This document shows positions 8,698 to 19,077 of a DNA stretch of 64,000 nucleotides, one piece after another (the stretch's first letter is position 1; each line of letters begins with the position of its first letter). This stretch comes from Crossiella sp. CA-258035 (GTDB lineage: Bacteria; Actinomycetota; Actinomycetes; Mycobacteriales; Pseudonocardiaceae): assembly GCF_030064675.1 (NCBI RefSeq), contig NZ_CP116413.1, forward strand, positions 1,335,001 through 1,399,000, given 5' to 3'. The position numbers and the translations under genes are program-made. Below the pieces are notes generated by a model that saw only the letters and a program-made list of their open reading frames with translations, was not told the origin of the DNA and searched no databases.

Positions 8698-8895
8698 CGC
8701 TCTTCTCTCCACTGCGGGGATGAGGGACCGGGTCCCGTTGGCTGAGCTGTCGGCCAAGGTGTACCCAGCGGAGCGGCGGTCGTCGACGCGCGGCGGCACA
8801 AATCGGTCTGACGGCTGACCCCCGGGACGCCGGTGTCGTCCGCGGGGGAGCGCGGCATCCGCATCGAGGCGGTCGGCCCGTAGTGTGCTGGGACG

Positions 8896-9648
8896 ATGAG
8901 CGGACTGACCTCAGTGGCGCGGCCCCTGCCCCGCCCGGACGCCACCCGGATGCTGATCGGCCTGAGCTACGCGGGCGGCGGCACCGCGCCACTGCGGCCA
9001 TGGGCGCGGGCGCTGCCTGCGGACACCGAGCTGGTGCTGATCTGCTACCCGGGAAGGGAACGCCGGTTCACCGAGCCGATGCCCGCCGACTTCGCGGACC
9101 TGGTAGCCGACGTGGTGACCGCGGTGCGCTCGGCGGCCCGGCTGCCGTACGTGCTCGCCGGACACAGCATGGGCGCGCTGGTCGCCTTCGAGACCGCGGT
9201 CCGCCTGGCGGACACGGCGGAAGCGCCGGCCGCGCTGGTCGTCTCCGGCCACCACGCCCCGCCGTACCTGCGCTTCACCGGCGACACCGGTCCGGTGGCC
9301 CGGCACGCCGACGCCGAGCTGCTGGCCTGGATCAGGGAGTACGGCACGCTGCCGGAGGAGATCCTGGCCGACGAGGACCTGGCCCAGGTGGTGCTGGCGG
9401 CCTTCCGCGCGGACCTGGCCCTGCACGGCACCTACCGCTACCAACCGGGAACCACGGTCAACATCCCGGTCCAGGCCCTGATCGGAGCCCAGGACCCGGT
9501 GACCCTGGCAGGCGCACGCCGCTGGCAGGAGATGACCACCGGCGACTTCCGCGCGGACGAACTCCCCGGTGCACACTTCTACACGCCGGAGGTGTGGCAG
9601 CACCTGCCTCGGCACATGGCTGCCGTCACCGGCGGGAATCTGGCCTGA
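8896..9648 (+). CDS. Type II thioesterase
   Basis: A 250-aa alpha/beta hydrolase of the GrsT/RifR type. The nucleophile elbow is GHSMGAL (Ser near residue 93), the early motif is LSYAGGG, and the catalytic His is in PGAHFY near residue 225. Such stand-alone enzymes remove mis-primed or stalled acyl groups from carrier proteins of polyketide or nonribosomal peptide synthases. No synthase is adjacent, so it may serve a cluster elsewhere or the locus at the left edge. A candidate -10 (TAGTGT) lies only about 10 bp before the ATG, so the leader is short. Confidence 0.85.
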   Translation: MSGLTSVARPLPRPDATRMLIGLSYAGGGTAPLRPWARALPADTELVLICYPGRERRFTEPMPADFADLVADVVTAVRSAARLPYVLAGHSMGALVAFETAVRLADTAEAPAALVVSGHHAPPYLRFTGDTGPVARHADAELLAWIREYGTLPEEILADEDLAQVVLAAFRADLALHGTYRYQPGTTVNIPVQALIGAQDPVTLAGARRWQEMTTGDFRADELPGAHFYTPEVWQHLPRHMAAVTGGNLA

Positions 9649-14219: not shown

Positions 14220-14720
14220 ATGATCCGGGTGGGCGGTGGACGTGCGCGGCATCGCGCGCGCCCACTGTCCGACGCCCAGGCGGCACAGTTGGTCGCGGTG
14301 ATCGCCACCGCCGAGTGGAAGCGCCTGGTGCGCCGCCGCACCATCGAGCTGGCCGGTCAGCCGTTGTGGACCTCGTTCCAGTTCGGCCTGCGCCCGGCCA
14401 GTTGCCGCCGCCTGGCCCGGCAGTCCCGCAGGCTGCTCTCGCCCAACGTGTTCCGCCGGGCCGCGGCCAGGGCGGGCGGGTTCCTGCCCGGCCGGTGGTC
14501 GGTGGAGCGCAAGATCGCCAACCGGATGCGCCGCGGCTGCCGCCTGCCCGGCGAGCAGGGCAGGCTGGCCACCGCGCGGGCGCTCCAGGTGCTCGGCGTC
14601 TACGCCTGCGTCCGCATGCAGCGGCCGCCCGCGGAGTGCCAGTGCCTCAACGACCTCACCAAGGAGCTGTCCCCGCAGGGCCTCACCCGCAGCCTGCGTG
14701 AGGCGCTGACCCGGATCTAG
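14220..14720 (+). CDS. Basic hypothetical protein
   Basis: A 166-aa, very Arg-rich protein with no recognised domain. It has a Cys-containing C-terminal half (RRGCRLPGEQ, GVYACVRMQ, AECQCLNDLTKEL). Codon use matches its neighbours. It lies 49 bp after the M23 gene on the same strand, so co-transcription is possible. Nucleic-acid binding would fit the charge but is not shown. Confidence 0.6.
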   Translation: MIRVGGGRARHRARPLSDAQAAQLVAVIATAEWKRLVRRRTIELAGQPLWTSFQFGLRPASCRRLARQSRRLLSPNVFRRAAARAGGFLPGRWSVERKIANRMRRGCRLPGEQGRLATARALQVLGVYACVRMQRPPAECQCLNDLTKELSPQGLTRSLREALTRI

Positions 14721-14804
14721 CGGTTACCGGGTAAGGTTGTTGTCACCGAGGGTATGTCGCGCGGAGGCAATCAAGCTGACGCCGCCTTGGGCGCACCACG
14801 ATTC

Positions 14805-14826
14805 CCGGCCGGCATTCGCTGGCCGG
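14805..14826 (+). promoter_or_regulatory. Hairpin in the leader of the Cys-rich trio
   Basis: A 6-bp perfect stem, CCGGCC-N10-GGCCGG, 17 bp upstream of the ATG of the Cys-rich microprotein. It could affect translation start. No known riboswitch pattern is seen in the 120-bp leader. Confidence 0.4.
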
Positions 14827-14842
14827 AGGCGGGAGCGCCGGG

Positions 14843-14992
14843 ATGAGTTCGGATCCACGTATGGCCACCGGCGATGAGCCGGTCTGCCTCGCCTGCCCGC
14901 ACGCCTGGCACGACCACGACCAGATCGCCGCGCGGTACTGCGCGGCGTCCGCGAGCAGCGGACTCAACCGAGGTTGTGTCTGCCCGGGTTAG
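14843..14992 (+). CDS. Cys/His-rich microprotein ending in RGCVC
   Basis: A 49-aa protein, with GGGAGCGCCGGG before the ATG. Its Cys and His residues are arranged as CLACPHAWHDHD, then RYC, then a terminal RGCVCPG (five Cys, three His). The pattern suggests metal binding or thiol chemistry. It resembles small actinobacterial proteins I recall as the RGCVC family; that assignment is from memory. The next gene starts 11 bp later and an opine/alanine-dehydrogenase-like enzyme follows. A regulator, metal-binding adaptor or modified-peptide precursor are all possible. Confidence 0.75.
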   Translation: MSSDPRMATGDEPVCLACPHAWHDHDQIAARYCAASASSGLNRGCVCPG

Positions 14993-15003
14993 GAGAACTC
15001 ACC

Positions 15004-15162
15004 ATGACCACCACCATCACCCCCATGTCCCGCTACGACCGCCGGATCGAACTGGTCAAGAACACGCTGCGGGAAAACTCCAAGCTCAACGAGAAGGACG
15101 CCACCGCGCTGGCCGCACACGTGCTGCACGCGATGGACCACATCGCCGAGACCGTCCGCTGA
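15004..15162 (+). CDS. 52-aa conserved helical protein (DUF6307-like)
   Basis: The protein starts at ATG with AGGAGA 8 nt upstream. Sequence features are SRYDRRIELVKNTLRENSKL, then AAHVLHAMDHI and a C-terminal ETVR. It is predicted to be two helices. I associate it with DUF6307, from memory. It lies between the Cys-rich microprotein and the dehydrogenase-like gene, whose frame begins at or just after this stop, so all three are likely one translation-coupled unit. The function is unknown. Confidence 0.7.
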   Translation: MTTTITPMSRYDRRIELVKNTLRENSKLNEKDATALAAHVLHAMDHIAETVR

Positions 15163-15185
15163 GCGCGGACCGGCTCAACCTCGGC

Positions 15186-16316
15186 GTGCTGGCGCGCTCA
15201 ACCAAGGAGAACGAGCGCAGGCTGCCGATCCACCCCGCCCACCTGCGGCTGATCGACGCCGCGCTCCGGGAGAACATCTTCCTGGAGCGCGGCTACGGCG
15301 CTCGTTTCGGCGTCTCCGACGACGCGCTCGCACCCTACGTCGGCGGACTGCGCTCGCGGGAGTGGCTGCTCGCCAAGTGCGAGGCGATCCTGCACCTCAA
15401 GCCGATGCCTGAGGACGTCGCCGCGCTGAGCGAGGGCCAGCTGCTCTGGGGCTGGCCGCACTGCGTGCAGAACGCGGAGATCACCCAGCTCGCGGTGGAC
15501 CGGAAGCTGACCCTGATCGCCTTCGAGGCGATGAACCACTGGACCGCCGACGGCGGGTTCAGCCTGCACGTCTTCCACAAGAACAACGAGCTGGCCGGCT
15601 ACTGCTCGGTGCTGCACGCCATGCAGCTCGTGGGCAGCACCGGGGACTACGGCAGGCGGCTGCGGGCGGTGGTGATCGGTTTCGGCGCCACCGCGCGCGG
15701 CGCGGTGACCGCGCTCAACGCGCACGGCGTGCACGAGGTGACCGTGCTGACCGGCCGAGGGGTCACCGCGGTCGGCTCGCCGATCCACTCCGCGCGGATC
15801 AAGCACCTGGAGCACAACGGCGATGCCCGGAGCAGCCAGGTGCTGGCCGACCGGGGCCGGGTGCCGCTGGCGGAGTTCCTGGGCGAGCACGACATCATCG
15901 TCAACTGCGTGTTGCAGCGCACCGACGCGCCGCTGACCTTCCTGGCCGAGGCGGACCTGCCCGCCCTGGCCCCCGGCAGCCTCATCGTGGACGTCTCCTG
16001 CGACGAGGGCATGGGGTTCAGCTGGGCCCGGCCGACCACGTTCACCGAGCCCATGTTCACCGTGGGCGACAACATCCACTACTACGGCGTCGACCACAGC
16101 CCCTCGCACCTGTGGAACTCGGCCACCTGGGAGATCAGCCAGGCGGTGCTGCCGCACCTGGCGACCGTGCTCGACGGCCCGGCCGCCTGGGCGGCCGACG
16201 ACATCCTGCGGCGCGCCACCGAGATCCGCGACGGCGTGATCCAGAACCCGGACATCCTGTCCTTCCAGCACAGGTCACCGGACTACCCGCACCAAGTCCT
16301 GCCAGGGGCGGCTTAA
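15186..16316 (+). CDS. N5-(carboxyethyl)ornithine synthase-like / alanine dehydrogenase-fold oxidoreductase
   Basis: About 376 aa. The N-terminal domain opens with KENERRLPIHP, as in AlaDH/PNT and saccharopine-dehydrogenase-like proteins, and contains HLKPMP. A Rossmann motif (VVIGFGATARGA) sits near residue 165, followed by VDVSCDEGMGFSWARP and HSPSHLW. Relatives reduce imines formed between an amino acid and a keto acid. The start is uncertain: GTG 15186 lacks a clear ribosome site, and the frame is open upstream to a CTG at 15159 that overlaps the previous stop. Translational coupling is likely. The gene ends overlapping the stop of the ABC transporter gene. Confidence 0.75.
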   Translation: MLARSTKENERRLPIHPAHLRLIDAALRENIFLERGYGARFGVSDDALAPYVGGLRSREWLLAKCEAILHLKPMPEDVAALSEGQLLWGWPHCVQNAEITQLAVDRKLTLIAFEAMNHWTADGGFSLHVFHKNNELAGYCSVLHAMQLVGSTGDYGRRLRAVVIGFGATARGAVTALNAHGVHEVTVLTGRGVTAVGSPIHSARIKHLEHNGDARSSQVLADRGRVPLAEFLGEHDIIVNCVLQRTDAPLTFLAEADLPALAPGSLIVDVSCDEGMGFSWARPTTFTEPMFTVGDNIHYYGVDHSPSHLWNSATWEISQAVLPHLATVLDGPAAWAADDILRRATEIRDGVIQNPDILSFQHRSPDYPHQVLPGAA

Positions 16317-17062
16317 AGCCGTCCGGCGGCGATGATGCGGCTGAGGAACTGCCGGGTGCGGGGCTCGACCGGGTCGCCGAGCACCTGCTCCGGCGGGCCC
16401 TGTTCCAGCAGCACGCCGCCGTCGAGGAAGCAGACCCGGTCGGCGACCTGTTTGGCGAAGCCCATCTCGTGCGTGGCCATCAGCAGCGTGCGGCCCTGCC
16501 CGGCCAGCTCGCGCACCAGGGCGAGCACCTCGCCGACCAGTTCCGGGTCCAGGGCGCTGGTGATCTCGTCGAGCAGCAGCAGGCGCGGCTCGTAGGCCAG
16601 GGCGCGGGCGATGGCCACCCGCTGCTGCTGGCCGCCGGAGAGCCGGTCCGGGTAGCTGTTCGCCTTGTCCGCCAGGCCGACCCTGGCCAGCAGCGCCAGC
16701 GCCTGCTCCTCGGCCTGCCCCCGGTCTGCCCTGTGCACGACCCTGGGCGCCAGGGTGACGTTGTCCAGCACGGACAGGTGCGGGAACAGGTTGAACGCCT
16801 GGAACACCACGCCCATCCGCCGCCTGGCCACATCCGGGTCGGTGCGCGGGTGCGAGATGTCCTCGCCGTCGAGCAGGATCTGCCCGTCGTCCAGCTCCTC
16901 CAACAGGTTCACGCAGCGCAGCAGGGTGGACTTGCCGGAGCCGGAGGCGCCGATCAGCACCACCACCTCGTGCTCGGCCACGTCCAGGTCGACCCCGCCC
17001 AGCACCGGGTTCCCGTGGTAGCGCTTGACCAGGTTGCGCACCCGGAGCACGGGTTCGCTCAT
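16313..17062 (-). CDS. Polar amino-acid ABC transporter ATP-binding protein
   Basis: A 249-aa ABC ATPase of the GlnQ/HisP type: Walker A GASGSGKST (about 37-45), Q-loop VVFQAFNLFPHL, signature LSGGQQQR and Walker B LLLLDEITSALDP. The downstream D/H-loop region is TLLMATHEMGFAKQVADR. It powers import by the permease and binding protein encoded just upstream on the same strand. ATG 17062 overlaps the permease stop by 4 bp. Confidence 0.93.
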   Translation of the reverse strand: MSEPVLRVRNLVKRYHGNPVLGGVDLDVAEHEVVVLIGASGSGKSTLLRCVNLLEELDDGQILLDGEDISHPRTDPDVARRRMGVVFQAFNLFPHLSVLDNVTLAPRVVHRADRGQAEEQALALLARVGLADKANSYPDRLSGGQQQRVAIARALAYEPRLLLLDEITSALDPELVGEVLALVRELAGQGRTLLMATHEMGFAKQVADRVCFLDGGVLLEQGPPEQVLGDPVEPRTRQFLSRIIAAGRL

Positions 17063-17910
17063 GCCACACCTCCGCCGGACTGCCGGCGCGCCGCCCGCGC
17101 GCTCGCCCAGTCGGCCAGTCGGCCGGACGGCACCGCCAGCAGCACGAACAGCAGCCCGGCGAGCACGTACGGGGTGAAGTTGTAGGCGGTGGCCGAGGAG
17201 ATCTGCGCCGCGCGCACCGCGTCCACCGCGCCCAGCACCGAGATCAGGCCGCAGTCCTTCTGCAGCGCCACGAAGTCGTTGAGCAGTGGCGGCAGCACCC
17301 GGCGCACCGCCTGCGGCAGCACCACGATCCGCATGGTCTGGGCGTGGGTGAGCCCGATCGAGCGGGCCGAGGCGCGCTGCGAGGGGTGCACCGAGTCGAT
17401 GCCGGCCCGGAAGACCTCGGCCACGTAGGCGGAGTAGACCAGCACCAGCGCGATCGAGCCCAGCACCACCGGCTCGTTCGGGATGCCGGTCAGCCGCAGG
17501 CCGGGCAGGCCGAAGCCGACCAGGTACAGCACGATGATCAGCGGCAGGCCGCGGAAGAGGTCCACGTAGCCGGTGCCCAGCGCGCGCAGCGGGAACCACA
17601 CCGGGCCGCGCAGCGTGCGCAGCGCGGCCACCGCCAGGCCCAGCGCCAGGATCAGCACCTCGCAGACCACCAGCACCCTGATGTTGAGCCACAGCCCGTC
17701 CAGCACCGCGGGCAGCGCCTTGACCGCGGCCTCGTAGTTGAAGAACGAGTCGCGCACCCGTGGCCAGCCCGGCGCGCTGGTGATGGTCAGCCAGGCCGCC
17801 ACCGCGAAGACCACTGTGGACAGCAGAGCGACCACAGTGGACTTGCGGCGGCGGGATCGCTGGTACGCCAGGCGTTCCCGCTGGATCGAGCTGGGTTCCA
17901 CTGTGGTCAC
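17059..17910 (-). CDS. Polar amino-acid ABC transporter permease
   Basis: A 283-aa membrane protein of the His/Glu/Gln/Arg/opine family. One N-terminal helix (about 35-55) precedes the transport core, and the EAA-loop-like segment is ARSIGLTHAQTMRIVVLPQA. GTG 17910 overlaps the stop of the binding-protein gene (GTGA). Three copies of the CCAC-N2-TGG palindrome occur inside the first 100 bp. Confidence 0.92.
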   Translation of the reverse strand: MTTVEPSSIQRERLAYQRSRRRKSTVVALLSTVVFAVAAWLTITSAPGWPRVRDSFFNYEAAVKALPAVLDGLWLNIRVLVVCEVLILALGLAVAALRTLRGPVWFPLRALGTGYVDLFRGLPLIIVLYLVGFGLPGLRLTGIPNEPVVLGSIALVLVYSAYVAEVFRAGIDSVHPSQRASARSIGLTHAQTMRIVVLPQAVRRVLPPLLNDFVALQKDCGLISVLGAVDAVRAAQISSATAYNFTPYVLAGLLFVLLAVPSGRLADWASARAARRQSGGGVA

Positions 17911-18761
17911 GAGAGTTCCGGCGCCTTGCCCGCCGCGGCCAGCCACTCCTGCTCCAGCTTGGCCAGCGTGCCGTCCGCGCGCAGCGCCTCCACCGCCTTG
18001 GTGAAGCAGCCGGTGAGCGCGCTGCCCTTGTCCAGCACCGCGCCGAACTGCTCCGGCTTGCCGCCGCCGGCGGGCAGCTGGCCGACGATGACCGCCTCGG
18101 AGATCTCCGCCGAGGTGATGTAGAACGCGGTCGGCAGGTCCACCACCAGCGCCTGGACCTGGTTGTTGCGCAGGGCCTGCTTGGCGTCGTCGTTGGTGTT
18201 GTAGACCGAGGCCTGCTTCTTCGGCTTGACCTGGTTGGTCACCGCGTCGTAGCTGGTGGTGCCGACCTGCGCGCCCAGGGTGAACCCGGCCAGCTCGGCC
18301 ACCGACTTCGCGGTCGCCGCCGGGGACTCCTTCAGCGCCACCACGGCCTGGCGCACGGTGTAGTACGGGGCGGAGAAGTCCACCGCGTTGCGCCGCTCAT
18401 CGGTGATGGAGAACTGGTTCAGGTCCGCGTCGAAGGTCTTCGGGCCGGGCTGGATGGCCGCGTTGAACGGCACCCGCACCCAGCTGACCTCCTCCTTGGC
18501 GAAGCCGAGCTTGCCTGCCACGGCGTAGGCCACCGCGGACTCGAAGCCCTTGCCGTTGGCCGGGTCGTTGCCGGTGAACCACGGCTCGTAGGCCGGCTCG
18601 TCGGTGCCGAAGGTGAGCTTGCCCGCGGCCACGGTCTTCAGCGAGCCCTTGGCGCAGTCCGAGGGACCGCTGGCCCCTGGTGATCTGCCCTGGTCAGCCG
18701 GGGCGCAGGCGGTGGCGGCCGCGACGAGGGCCAGTGTGGCGGCGAGGAGGGAAACGCGCAT
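17907..18761 (-). CDS. Amino-acid ABC transporter substrate-binding lipoprotein (family 3)
   Basis: A 284-aa protein with a signal ending in a lipobox-like AAATAC (Cys near residue 20). The mature part has FGTDEPAYEPWF, GFESAVAYAVA and the typical family 3 lobe motif RRNAVDFSAPYYTVRQAVVAL. It captures a polar amino acid outside the membrane for the coupled permease and ATPase. The ligand cannot be told from the sequence. It is the first gene of a three-gene operon with 4-bp overlaps. Confidence 0.92.
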   Translation of the reverse strand: MRVSLLAATLALVAAATACAPADQGRSPGASGPSDCAKGSLKTVAAGKLTFGTDEPAYEPWFTGNDPANGKGFESAVAYAVAGKLGFAKEEVSWVRVPFNAAIQPGPKTFDADLNQFSITDERRNAVDFSAPYYTVRQAVVALKESPAATAKSVAELAGFTLGAQVGTTSYDAVTNQVKPKKQASVYNTNDDAKQALRNNQVQALVVDLPTAFYITSAEISEAVIVGQLPAGGGKPEQFGAVLDKGSALTGCFTKAVEALRADGTLAKLEQEWLAAAGKAPELS

Positions 18762-18900
18762 GGGCGCATCTAACCGCAGCACCGCCGGGAACCGGAGCAG
18801 CCATGCGCGCGTTCCAATGGGCGGACACGTTTCCGGCGATTCGGACACCGCTCGTTCGGGTAGACCGGGAACACCCGACCGCTGAACTTGAGGAGTTGAG

Positions 18901-19077
18901 ATGGCCGGACTGTTCGCCAAGCTCGCCCGGTTCGCTTCCAGCCCGAAGGGCCAACGACTGATCGACCAGGCCCGCAGGCAGGCGGCCAAGCCGAAGAACC
19001 GGGCCAAGCTCCAGCGCCTGTTCGCCCGCTTGACCGGCCGCGGCCGGGGTGGCGGTGGCGGTCACTACCGGCCCTGA
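18901..19077 (+). CDS. 58-aa highly basic protein with Gly-rich tail
   Basis: The protein starts at ATG with AGGAG 5 nt upstream and reads MAGLFAKLARFASS onward, with GQRLIDQARRQAA, KNRAKLQRLFARL and a tail of GRGRGGGGGHYRP. It has strong positive charge, amphipathic helices and no Cys. Size and charge would suit nucleic-acid or membrane binding; the family is not recognised. It is divergent from the ABC importer operon and ends 7 bp from the convergent C39-like gene. Confidence 0.7.
   Translation: MAGLFAKLARFASSPKGQRLIDQARRQAAKPKNRAKLQRLFARLTGRGRGGGGGHYRP

Follow-up and report, generated by a model that had tools for sequence, protein, structure and literature searches.

In cspA-type and other translational leader RNAs and thermosensors, a long structured 5' UTR governs the start codon. 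ANTAR-target RNAs consist of two stem-loops, each with a hexaloop carrying A1 and G4 and they favour transport and sugar genes (Mehta and Ramesh, 2021; PMC8164766). The locus described here lies in a stretch of 64,000 nucleotides of the genome of Crossiella sp. CA-258035 (contig NZ_CP116413.1, positions 1,335,001 to 1,399,000), which we refer to as the window and whose own positions are used throughout. It opens with a conserved RNA element resembling the cspA-type leaders in being a long structured leader at a start codon, with cold-type genes among its members; folding of the leader modelled at 5–55 °C gave no sign of a thermal switch. Like the ANTAR-target RNAs, it is a structured actinobacterial mRNA element of a kind that in some cases lies over the ribosome site or start codon, and ANTAR-type genes are found near some of its copies. 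It differs from them in its P1-P2 helices, its P3 loop of variable length and its start-codon hairpin, and in favouring DUF5994 genes. The features of the locus are the following (A5 and A6 are alignments of leader copies presented below):

14731..14855, plus strand: leader RNA element, conserved and structured (103 bits with covariance model R1), with its 3' end over the RGCVC start codon
14731..14737, plus strand: -10 promoter box GTAAGGT at the 5' edge of the element (family pattern G-n-GTAnnnT)
14746..14791, plus strand: helix P1 (14746-14752/14785-14791) enclosing P2 (14758-14768/14775-14784, 6-nt loop), from covariation; the fold of the single sequence likewise contains P1 and part of P2
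14805..14826, plus strand: P3 hairpin (14805-14811/14820-14826), from covariation; 7/7 pairs with p<0.01 in A5
14838..14852, plus strand: P4 hairpin (14838-14842/14848-14852), from covariation; 5/5 pairs with p<0.01 in A5 and 3/5 in A6
14843..14992, plus strand: RGCVC-family protein, 49 aa (NF038206, 69.1 bits; 44-member alignment)
15004..15162, plus strand: DUF6307 protein, 52 aa (PF19826, 65.7 bits, cut-off 25)
15165..16316, plus strand: AlaDH/PNT-type dehydrogenase (PF05222 and PF01262; orthologues at 60–81% identity)

The three genes and the start of the enzyme

The preliminary description of this DNA had pointed to a 49-aa Cys/His mini-protein with a terminal RGCVCPG, and the ORF at 14843-14992 indeed encodes it, including the segment CLACPHAWHDHD. 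The protein belongs to the NCBIfam family RGCVC (NF038206), scoring 69.1 bits against a curated cut-off of 35 and sharing the Cys/His pattern of the family without any difference; the family has a name and no stated function. The 52-aa protein is in the same way a full-length match to Pfam DUF6307 (PF19826), without differences, at 65.7 bits against a gathering score of 25 (profile positions 1–43). Both small proteins are far above the curated cut-offs and are therefore not chance ORFs. The tight packing described earlier agrees with the coordinates: the 52-aa gene starts at ATG 15004, behind a GGAG site of its own that overlaps the RGCVC stop, and ends at 15162, and the enzyme frame, open to the stop at 16316, follows with nearly no spacer after the DUF6307 stop codon. 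At the thresholds used, each of the three genes has a single match in the 9.17-Mb genome.

We aligned the RGCVC protein of the window with 43 of the 55 distinct other sequences, leaving out 12. Over these 44 sequences ten residues are invariant, including five Cys and two His, and C15, C18, H20, H25, C33, C45 and C47 form a metal-site pattern. Among the 12 left out, two (L207 and L208) have no C-terminal R-x-C-x-C and one (L171) differs there. To judge from these residues, the most likely role of the RGCVC protein is that of a small helper that binds metal. The unit had been named as a candidate for an undescribed system; that all three proteins are undescribed is not supported, since both small ones are members of already named families without known function; the link among the genes is real, and what is new here is the context and the leader.

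The third protein belongs to the AlaDH/PNT superfamily, with PF05222 (AlaDh_PNT_N) and PF01262 (AlaDh_PNT_C) at 47.3 and 48.7 bits, above their gathering scores. The solved structures that match it best are those of alanine dehydrogenases, with which it shares the N and C domains and an Arg, a Lys, a His and an Asp that we take to be the alanine dehydrogenase catalytic set; all four align. Nevertheless, it scores far under the alanine dehydrogenase equivalog TIGR00518 (72.5 bits against a cut-off of 391.85). By eye, its Rossmann segment does not have the usual NAD-binding Asp, so that the cofactor is perhaps NADP. N5-(carboxyethyl)ornithine synthase, which condenses pyruvate with ornithine or lysine in an NADPH-dependent reaction, is the likeness by which the enzyme had been named before. 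The orthologues are 60–81% identical (56–62% for one copy split over two contigs), and the one from Actinocrispum wychmicini, at 81%, starts with GTG behind a GGGAG ribosome site (L061).

The enzyme had been said to lack a normal start, and this was borne out because a GCG at 15165-15167 replaces the orthologous GTG, TTG or ATG. A script could read the start in 36 of 80 enzyme loci, missing 44, and in 32 of those 36 it lies five codons before an "LG" motif (25 GTG, 4 TTG and 3 ATG). From 14874 to 15252 the frame has no ATG, GTG or TTG codons other than ATG 14874 and GTG 14976, both within the RGCVC gene, and GTG 15186, which sits within the first strand of the enzyme protein; a CTG at 15159, in frame with the enzyme, overlaps the DUF6307 stop (CTGA). 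The missing start may stem from loss of the codon, from a sequencing error or from coupled initiation of a non-standard kind, and the enzyme of this genome would be either poorly translated via coupling to the DUF6307 stop or decaying.

Two neighbours of the cassette can be mentioned. A 166-aa ORF upstream (14220-14720, plus strand) matches nothing in Pfam or NCBIfam at E≤1, and two other genomes of the genus (G249 and G250) retain it upstream of their cassette site. Convergent with the enzyme, on the minus strand at 16317-19007, there are genes of an amino-acid-type ABC transporter (ATPase, permease and binding protein, by eye), whose DNA is retained in three congeneric genomes that have no enzyme (G249–G251) and which is thus probably unrelated to it.

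A leader RNA with four helices

The earlier reading of the locus, centred on the genes, had overlooked its most unusual part, the leader RNA. The -10 box at its 5' edge is strongly conserved over 91 aligned copies (91–99% per position; T 98%, A 98%, last T 99% and G at -2 92%), and no conserved -35 was found among them. P1 follows about 8 nt after the end of the box, so the transcript is expected to start with the structure, and the element fits a structured leader RNA by its covarying helices and its position in the 5' UTR, with the transcript start taken from the promoter box. At its other end the RGCVC start codon (AUG 14843-14845) lies in the loop of P4, and a candidate ribosome site, GGGAG, is found between P3 and P4, just 5' of P4. 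In A1, an alignment of 37 sequences made with MAFFT, the helices occupy columns 18-24/59-65 (P1), 30-42/49-58 (P2), 79-86/95-101 (P3) and 114-118/125-129 (P4), and the conserved unpaired residues are a CAUnUCG joiner and a GGUCAA loop. Six of the seven positions of the joiner are complementary to the start-codon region, the middle one not (by eye).

Covariation was measured on A1 and on two alignments fitted to the model, A5 with 91 copies and A6 with 77 distinct copies, the latter mostly from other orders of the class and none of them used in building the models. Two-sided changes were found in 20 of the 29 pairs in A1, 27 in A5 and 24 in A6. No shuffled alignment out of 500 reached A1 in any of five measures, and the fraction of paired cells was 87.3% in A1 (28.6–44.4% in slid controls) and 87.2% in A6 (34.3–51.2%), with P4 weaker in A6 at 65.2%. 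Since relatedness can mimic covariation, each set was compared with 60 alignments simulated on its inferred tree. Under this tree-preserving null the 10 best of 7140 column pairs in A5 were all within P1-P4, whereas only 4 of the 10 best were in A6. Family-wise (E<0.05), A5 retained three pairs and A6 one, all in P2 or P3, and the values given above for the five pairs of P4 were obtained under the same null. P1-P4 are in this way supported as predicted helices by covariation under a tree-preserving null.

By eye, two subtypes of the leader can be told apart at A1 columns 59 and 104, U-A in 20 of the 37 sequences and C-G in 12. The first comprises mostly DUF5994 leaders and the second mostly those of RGCVC, enzyme and desaturase genes, a possible gene-class specificity.

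Distribution of the leader and the genes beneath it

The region upstream of RGCVC has stayed conserved even between distant genera. A DNA search with it found the leader in six genomes (G223, G132, G215 and G249–G251), standing 5' of RGCVC, enzyme and DUF5994 genes, and an iterative profile search gave 55 copies in 141 loci. The covariance model R1 at E≤0.01 matched 67 of the order's 249 genomes, from 31 of 69 genera, two or three of the 67 being possible chance matches at this per-genome threshold; 51 genomes remained at E≤1e-4. The model R2 at E≤1e-4 matched 53 of 394 genomes of the class Actinomycetes (15 of 138 genera); among 296 genomes of the phylum it matched eight, all inside the class. 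A genome can have up to seven copies.

Genes were assigned to the leader when their start codon fell within the last 18 nt of the match, and it was mostly at -13, that is, in the P4 loop. Among 138 matches, which include a few same-place duplicates (e.g., L244/L267, L182/L239 and L191/L232), 51 stand over DUF5994, 18 over RGCVC, three over the enzyme frame, two over DUF6307 and 64 over unclassed genes, i.e., those that fit none of the four gene tests, some of the matches being weak. Two of the enzyme frames (L070 and L122) reach the leader only by a long extension, so that their true start may be further downstream. The 77 matches counted out of 83 further ones gave 48 DUF5994, one enzyme and 28 unclassed; the six rows left out came from L296, L310 and L311, the last two of which duplicate other loci (L296 does not). 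DUF5994 is therefore the gene most often overlapped by the leader at its start codon.

Pfam searches with representatives of the unclassed genes identified ice-binding proteins (PF11999), a fatty-acid desaturase, a GAF-ANTAR protein (the leader-headed gene of L276), a phosphoketolase (XFP) and an SPFH/Band 7 protein (Band_7; slipin). One ice-binding protein was scored and eight copies are similar by eye; these ice-binding-like secreted proteins under the leader (L236, L245–L249, L253 and L254) mostly start with GTG, and the eight genomes belong to one family of the order (f16). STAS domains occur in four ORFs at or just 3' of the element, three above a cut-off and one just under it.

Neither RGCVC nor the enzyme depends on the leader, since at the threshold used 18 of 49 RGCVC genes are preceded by an element at a distance of up to 150 nt and 31 are not, and 59 of the 80 enzyme loci contain none. 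Both element and enzyme are present in 8 of the 18 genomes with the enzyme, which is not significant (p = 0.075, ignoring kinship). The element accompanies RGCVC in 34 of 48 genomes against 12.9 expected, a figure that ignores kinship and is partly circular because RGCVC loci were among those used to build the model.

Some copies have particular arrangements. Back-to-back, opposed leader pairs were seen at L061:7437-7718, L065:6389-6821, L267:143-450 and L325:234-599; in L061 one of the two heads DUF5994 and the other RGCVC, and in L065 both head DUF5994. Short ORFs of 52–73 aa, like cut-down versions of DUF5994, start in the leader in L181 (~8230, plus strand), L184 (~7455, minus strand), L183 (copy 8854-8973) and L076 (copy 1810-1930). 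They are followed by the enzyme in L181 and by a desaturase-like gene in L184 and are possible leader peptides; the one in L181 had a Pfam score of 15.5 bits, below the cut-off.

How the leader may act and alternative explanations

We regard it as fairly probable that the element is a so far undescribed cis-regulatory RNA of actinomycetes, which probably acts on translation and heads a stress-type regulon that includes this cassette; we infer the signal and the mechanism as follows. The sigma-70-type -10 box (14731) would start transcription close to P1, so that the 5' UTR, about 100 nt long, would consist almost entirely of one folded leader. P1 closing P2 would come first, then P3 and then P4, whose loop would display the RGCVC AUG just 3' of the candidate ribosome site. 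The leader would control the initiation of translation, and an initiating ribosome, a protein or a condition would decide between P4-closed and P4-open. The regulon would comprise DUF5994, RGCVC, DUF6307, the dehydrogenase, fatty-acid desaturase, ice-binding proteins, GAF-ANTAR and STAS regulators, phosphoketolase and slipin, and it may be a stress, perhaps cold or membrane, regulon, a theme read solely from gene families and their names. It is possible, if somewhat doubtful, that the leader represents a new class of actinomycete sensor RNA in which a physical or chemical stress is sensed directly or via a protein and the P4 hairpin switches the translation of a dispersed regulon, with DUF5994, RGCVC and DUF6307, all of them proteins of no known function, at its core; our best guess for the sensed stress, from the desaturase and ice-binding members, would be cold or membrane state.

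The literature and databases point to an undescribed class. Against Rfam 15 at gathering score, the window and eight other loci yielded only one tRNA each; at any E-value the best match had E = 2.2 and 16.9 bits where 50 are required, and at E≤1 there was none in six loci, each with a leader copy. RGCVC and DUF5994 are named in no paper of the open-licence literature (preprints and most subscription papers lie outside this scope), and a search there for DUF6307 gave a single paper, on an insertion sequence. In another source, ceo was not significant by the paper's own threshold (PMC13185595). The lack of Rfam matches and of the ANTAR hexaloops, together with the absence of RGCVC and DUF5994 from open-licence papers, indicates an undescribed class within a known kind, the structured leader RNAs.

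Two simple switches were considered. The single-sequence fold of the window leader (z = -1.94) contained P1, part of P2 and P3; P4 as drawn was absent and the ribosome-site region paired with the P1-P3 linker. Folding at 5–55 °C gave no sharp opening of the ribosome site, the predicted unpaired fraction rising from 0.33 to 0.58 for the AUG and from 0.21 to 0.28 for GGGAG, so the thermodynamics, with ribosome-site/AUG pairing nearly flat over this range, lend no support to an RNA thermometer. A two-state switch was also sought and none was found. The best alternative helix, which would sequester the SD by pairing the P1 3' strand with the ribosome-site region (A1 columns 56-62/101-107), was good in the covariation scan and its covariation score was reached in 0 of 500 shuffles, but its two-sided pairs were reached in 160 of 500 and its further pair types in 499 of 500. 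With the tree-preserving null, none of its seven pairs had p<0.01 in either A5 or A6, which leaves it unsupported as a switch.

The flat response to temperature would also suit a constitutive translation enhancer or mRNA stabiliser, in which the helices guard the 5' end, placed near P1 by the -10 box, and P4 offers the AUG of small abundant proteins. The great diversity of the genes under the leader is likewise compatible with such a role. We nevertheless think it unlikely, as regulation fits better with multiple copies in many genomes, mostly over the start codon, and with a gene set rich in regulators and stress-type genes.

The conserved unpaired joiner and GGUCAA loop would be understandable if the leader were a metabolite riboswitch or a protein target outside Rfam, perhaps of a non-canonical ANTAR protein, a reading to which we assign a low probability. 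A leader-bearing GAF-ANTAR gene (L276) and the presence of GAF-ANTAR-like genes (cluster 5, by eye) near 7 of 49 RGCVC loci, a raw count, point in this direction. However, the dual hexaloop with A1 and G4 that defines ANTAR targets, as given in PMC8164766, is absent: in alignment A1, by eye, the 6-nt loop of P2 is mostly GGUCAA, with neither A1 nor G4, and the P3 loop is variable, so the leader is not an ANTAR-target RNA in that sense. As for a metabolite, the downstream genes have no obvious one in common. A c-di-AMP riboswitch, the first guess, had no Rfam match.

The locus had been put forward as a three-protein system, with the Cys/His mini-protein as cofactor, regulator or substrate of the dehydrogenase. 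Among the 249 genomes of the order, 48 have an RGCVC gene above cut-off (51 at E≤0.001), 23 have DUF6307 and 18 have an enzyme of the close group (about 60% identity and more). Every pair occurs together above expectation in a statistic that ignores kinship: RGCVC and DUF6307 in 12 genomes (4.4 expected), enzyme and DUF6307 in 11 (1.7) and enzyme and RGCVC in 8 (3.5). The genes are also physically close. RGCVC and DUF6307 are about 60 bp apart or closer in nine genomes, the enzyme overlaps RGCVC in two (G223 and G192) and lies within 500 bp of DUF6307 in five (G000, G033, G116, G130 and G142), and in 5 of the 80 enzyme loci (L061, L069, L076, L088 and L123) RGCVC is the direct neighbour of the enzyme, at a distance of no more than 40 bp. 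Since pairwise adjacency recurs in distant genomes, the link between the genes is real, and the proposed check of co-occurrence was favourable as far as pairs are concerned.

It did not bear out a fixed three-gene operon. All three genes are found in only 7 of the 249 genomes (in G223 within 6 kb), and the fetched flanks of the 80 enzyme loci contain RGCVC or DUF6307 in 13 and both in 4. The tight order RGCVC-DUF6307-enzyme is seen only in the window; in L075 the order is the same, but with a gap of about 5.5 kb. Of the 48 genomes with RGCVC, 40 lack the enzyme, as do 12 of the 23 with DUF6307, which leaves little support for a small protein as peptide substrate of the enzyme. RGCVC follows a desaturase-like gene instead in L185–L187 (with DUF6307) and L194 (without it); the desaturase-like call was made by eye, and a similar protein, in L279, is PF00487. 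In the genus of the window none of the three other genomes (G249–G251) has the enzyme. Two of them (G249 and G250) keep RGCVC-DUF6307 at the same site, in G250 with an inverted repeat after the DUF6307 stop and then the next conserved gene, and in G251 the site is empty and RGCVC with its leader is at another place. A dedicated three-protein system is thus quite improbable. From the varied gene combinations and the states of the site within the genus, RGCVC, DUF6307 and the enzyme appear as partners in a flexible cassette, and we propose that the dehydrogenase is an optional passenger of it whose normal start codon was lost here.

Beside DUF6307, four loci (L173:9532-9918, L174, L184 and L189) encode a short protein with weak similarity to S30AE (ribosome hibernation); the copy in L173, the one scored of the four, reached 18.8 bits, below the cut-off of 23.7.

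Finally, that the element is a DNA-level cassette, a promoter and start region copied between genes and conserved as DNA rather than RNA, is very improbable, because although it holds promoter and start codon and moves with RGCVC (to another place in G251), the compensatory changes in P1-P4 exceed the tree-preserving null and the slid and shuffled controls.

A multi-copy actinomycete leader without an Rfam match would define a regulon and open a first way to the function of DUF5994, RGCVC and DUF6307. It offers a reason for the repeated company of unrelated small genes and, as its copies end at the start codon, it is a directly testable element.
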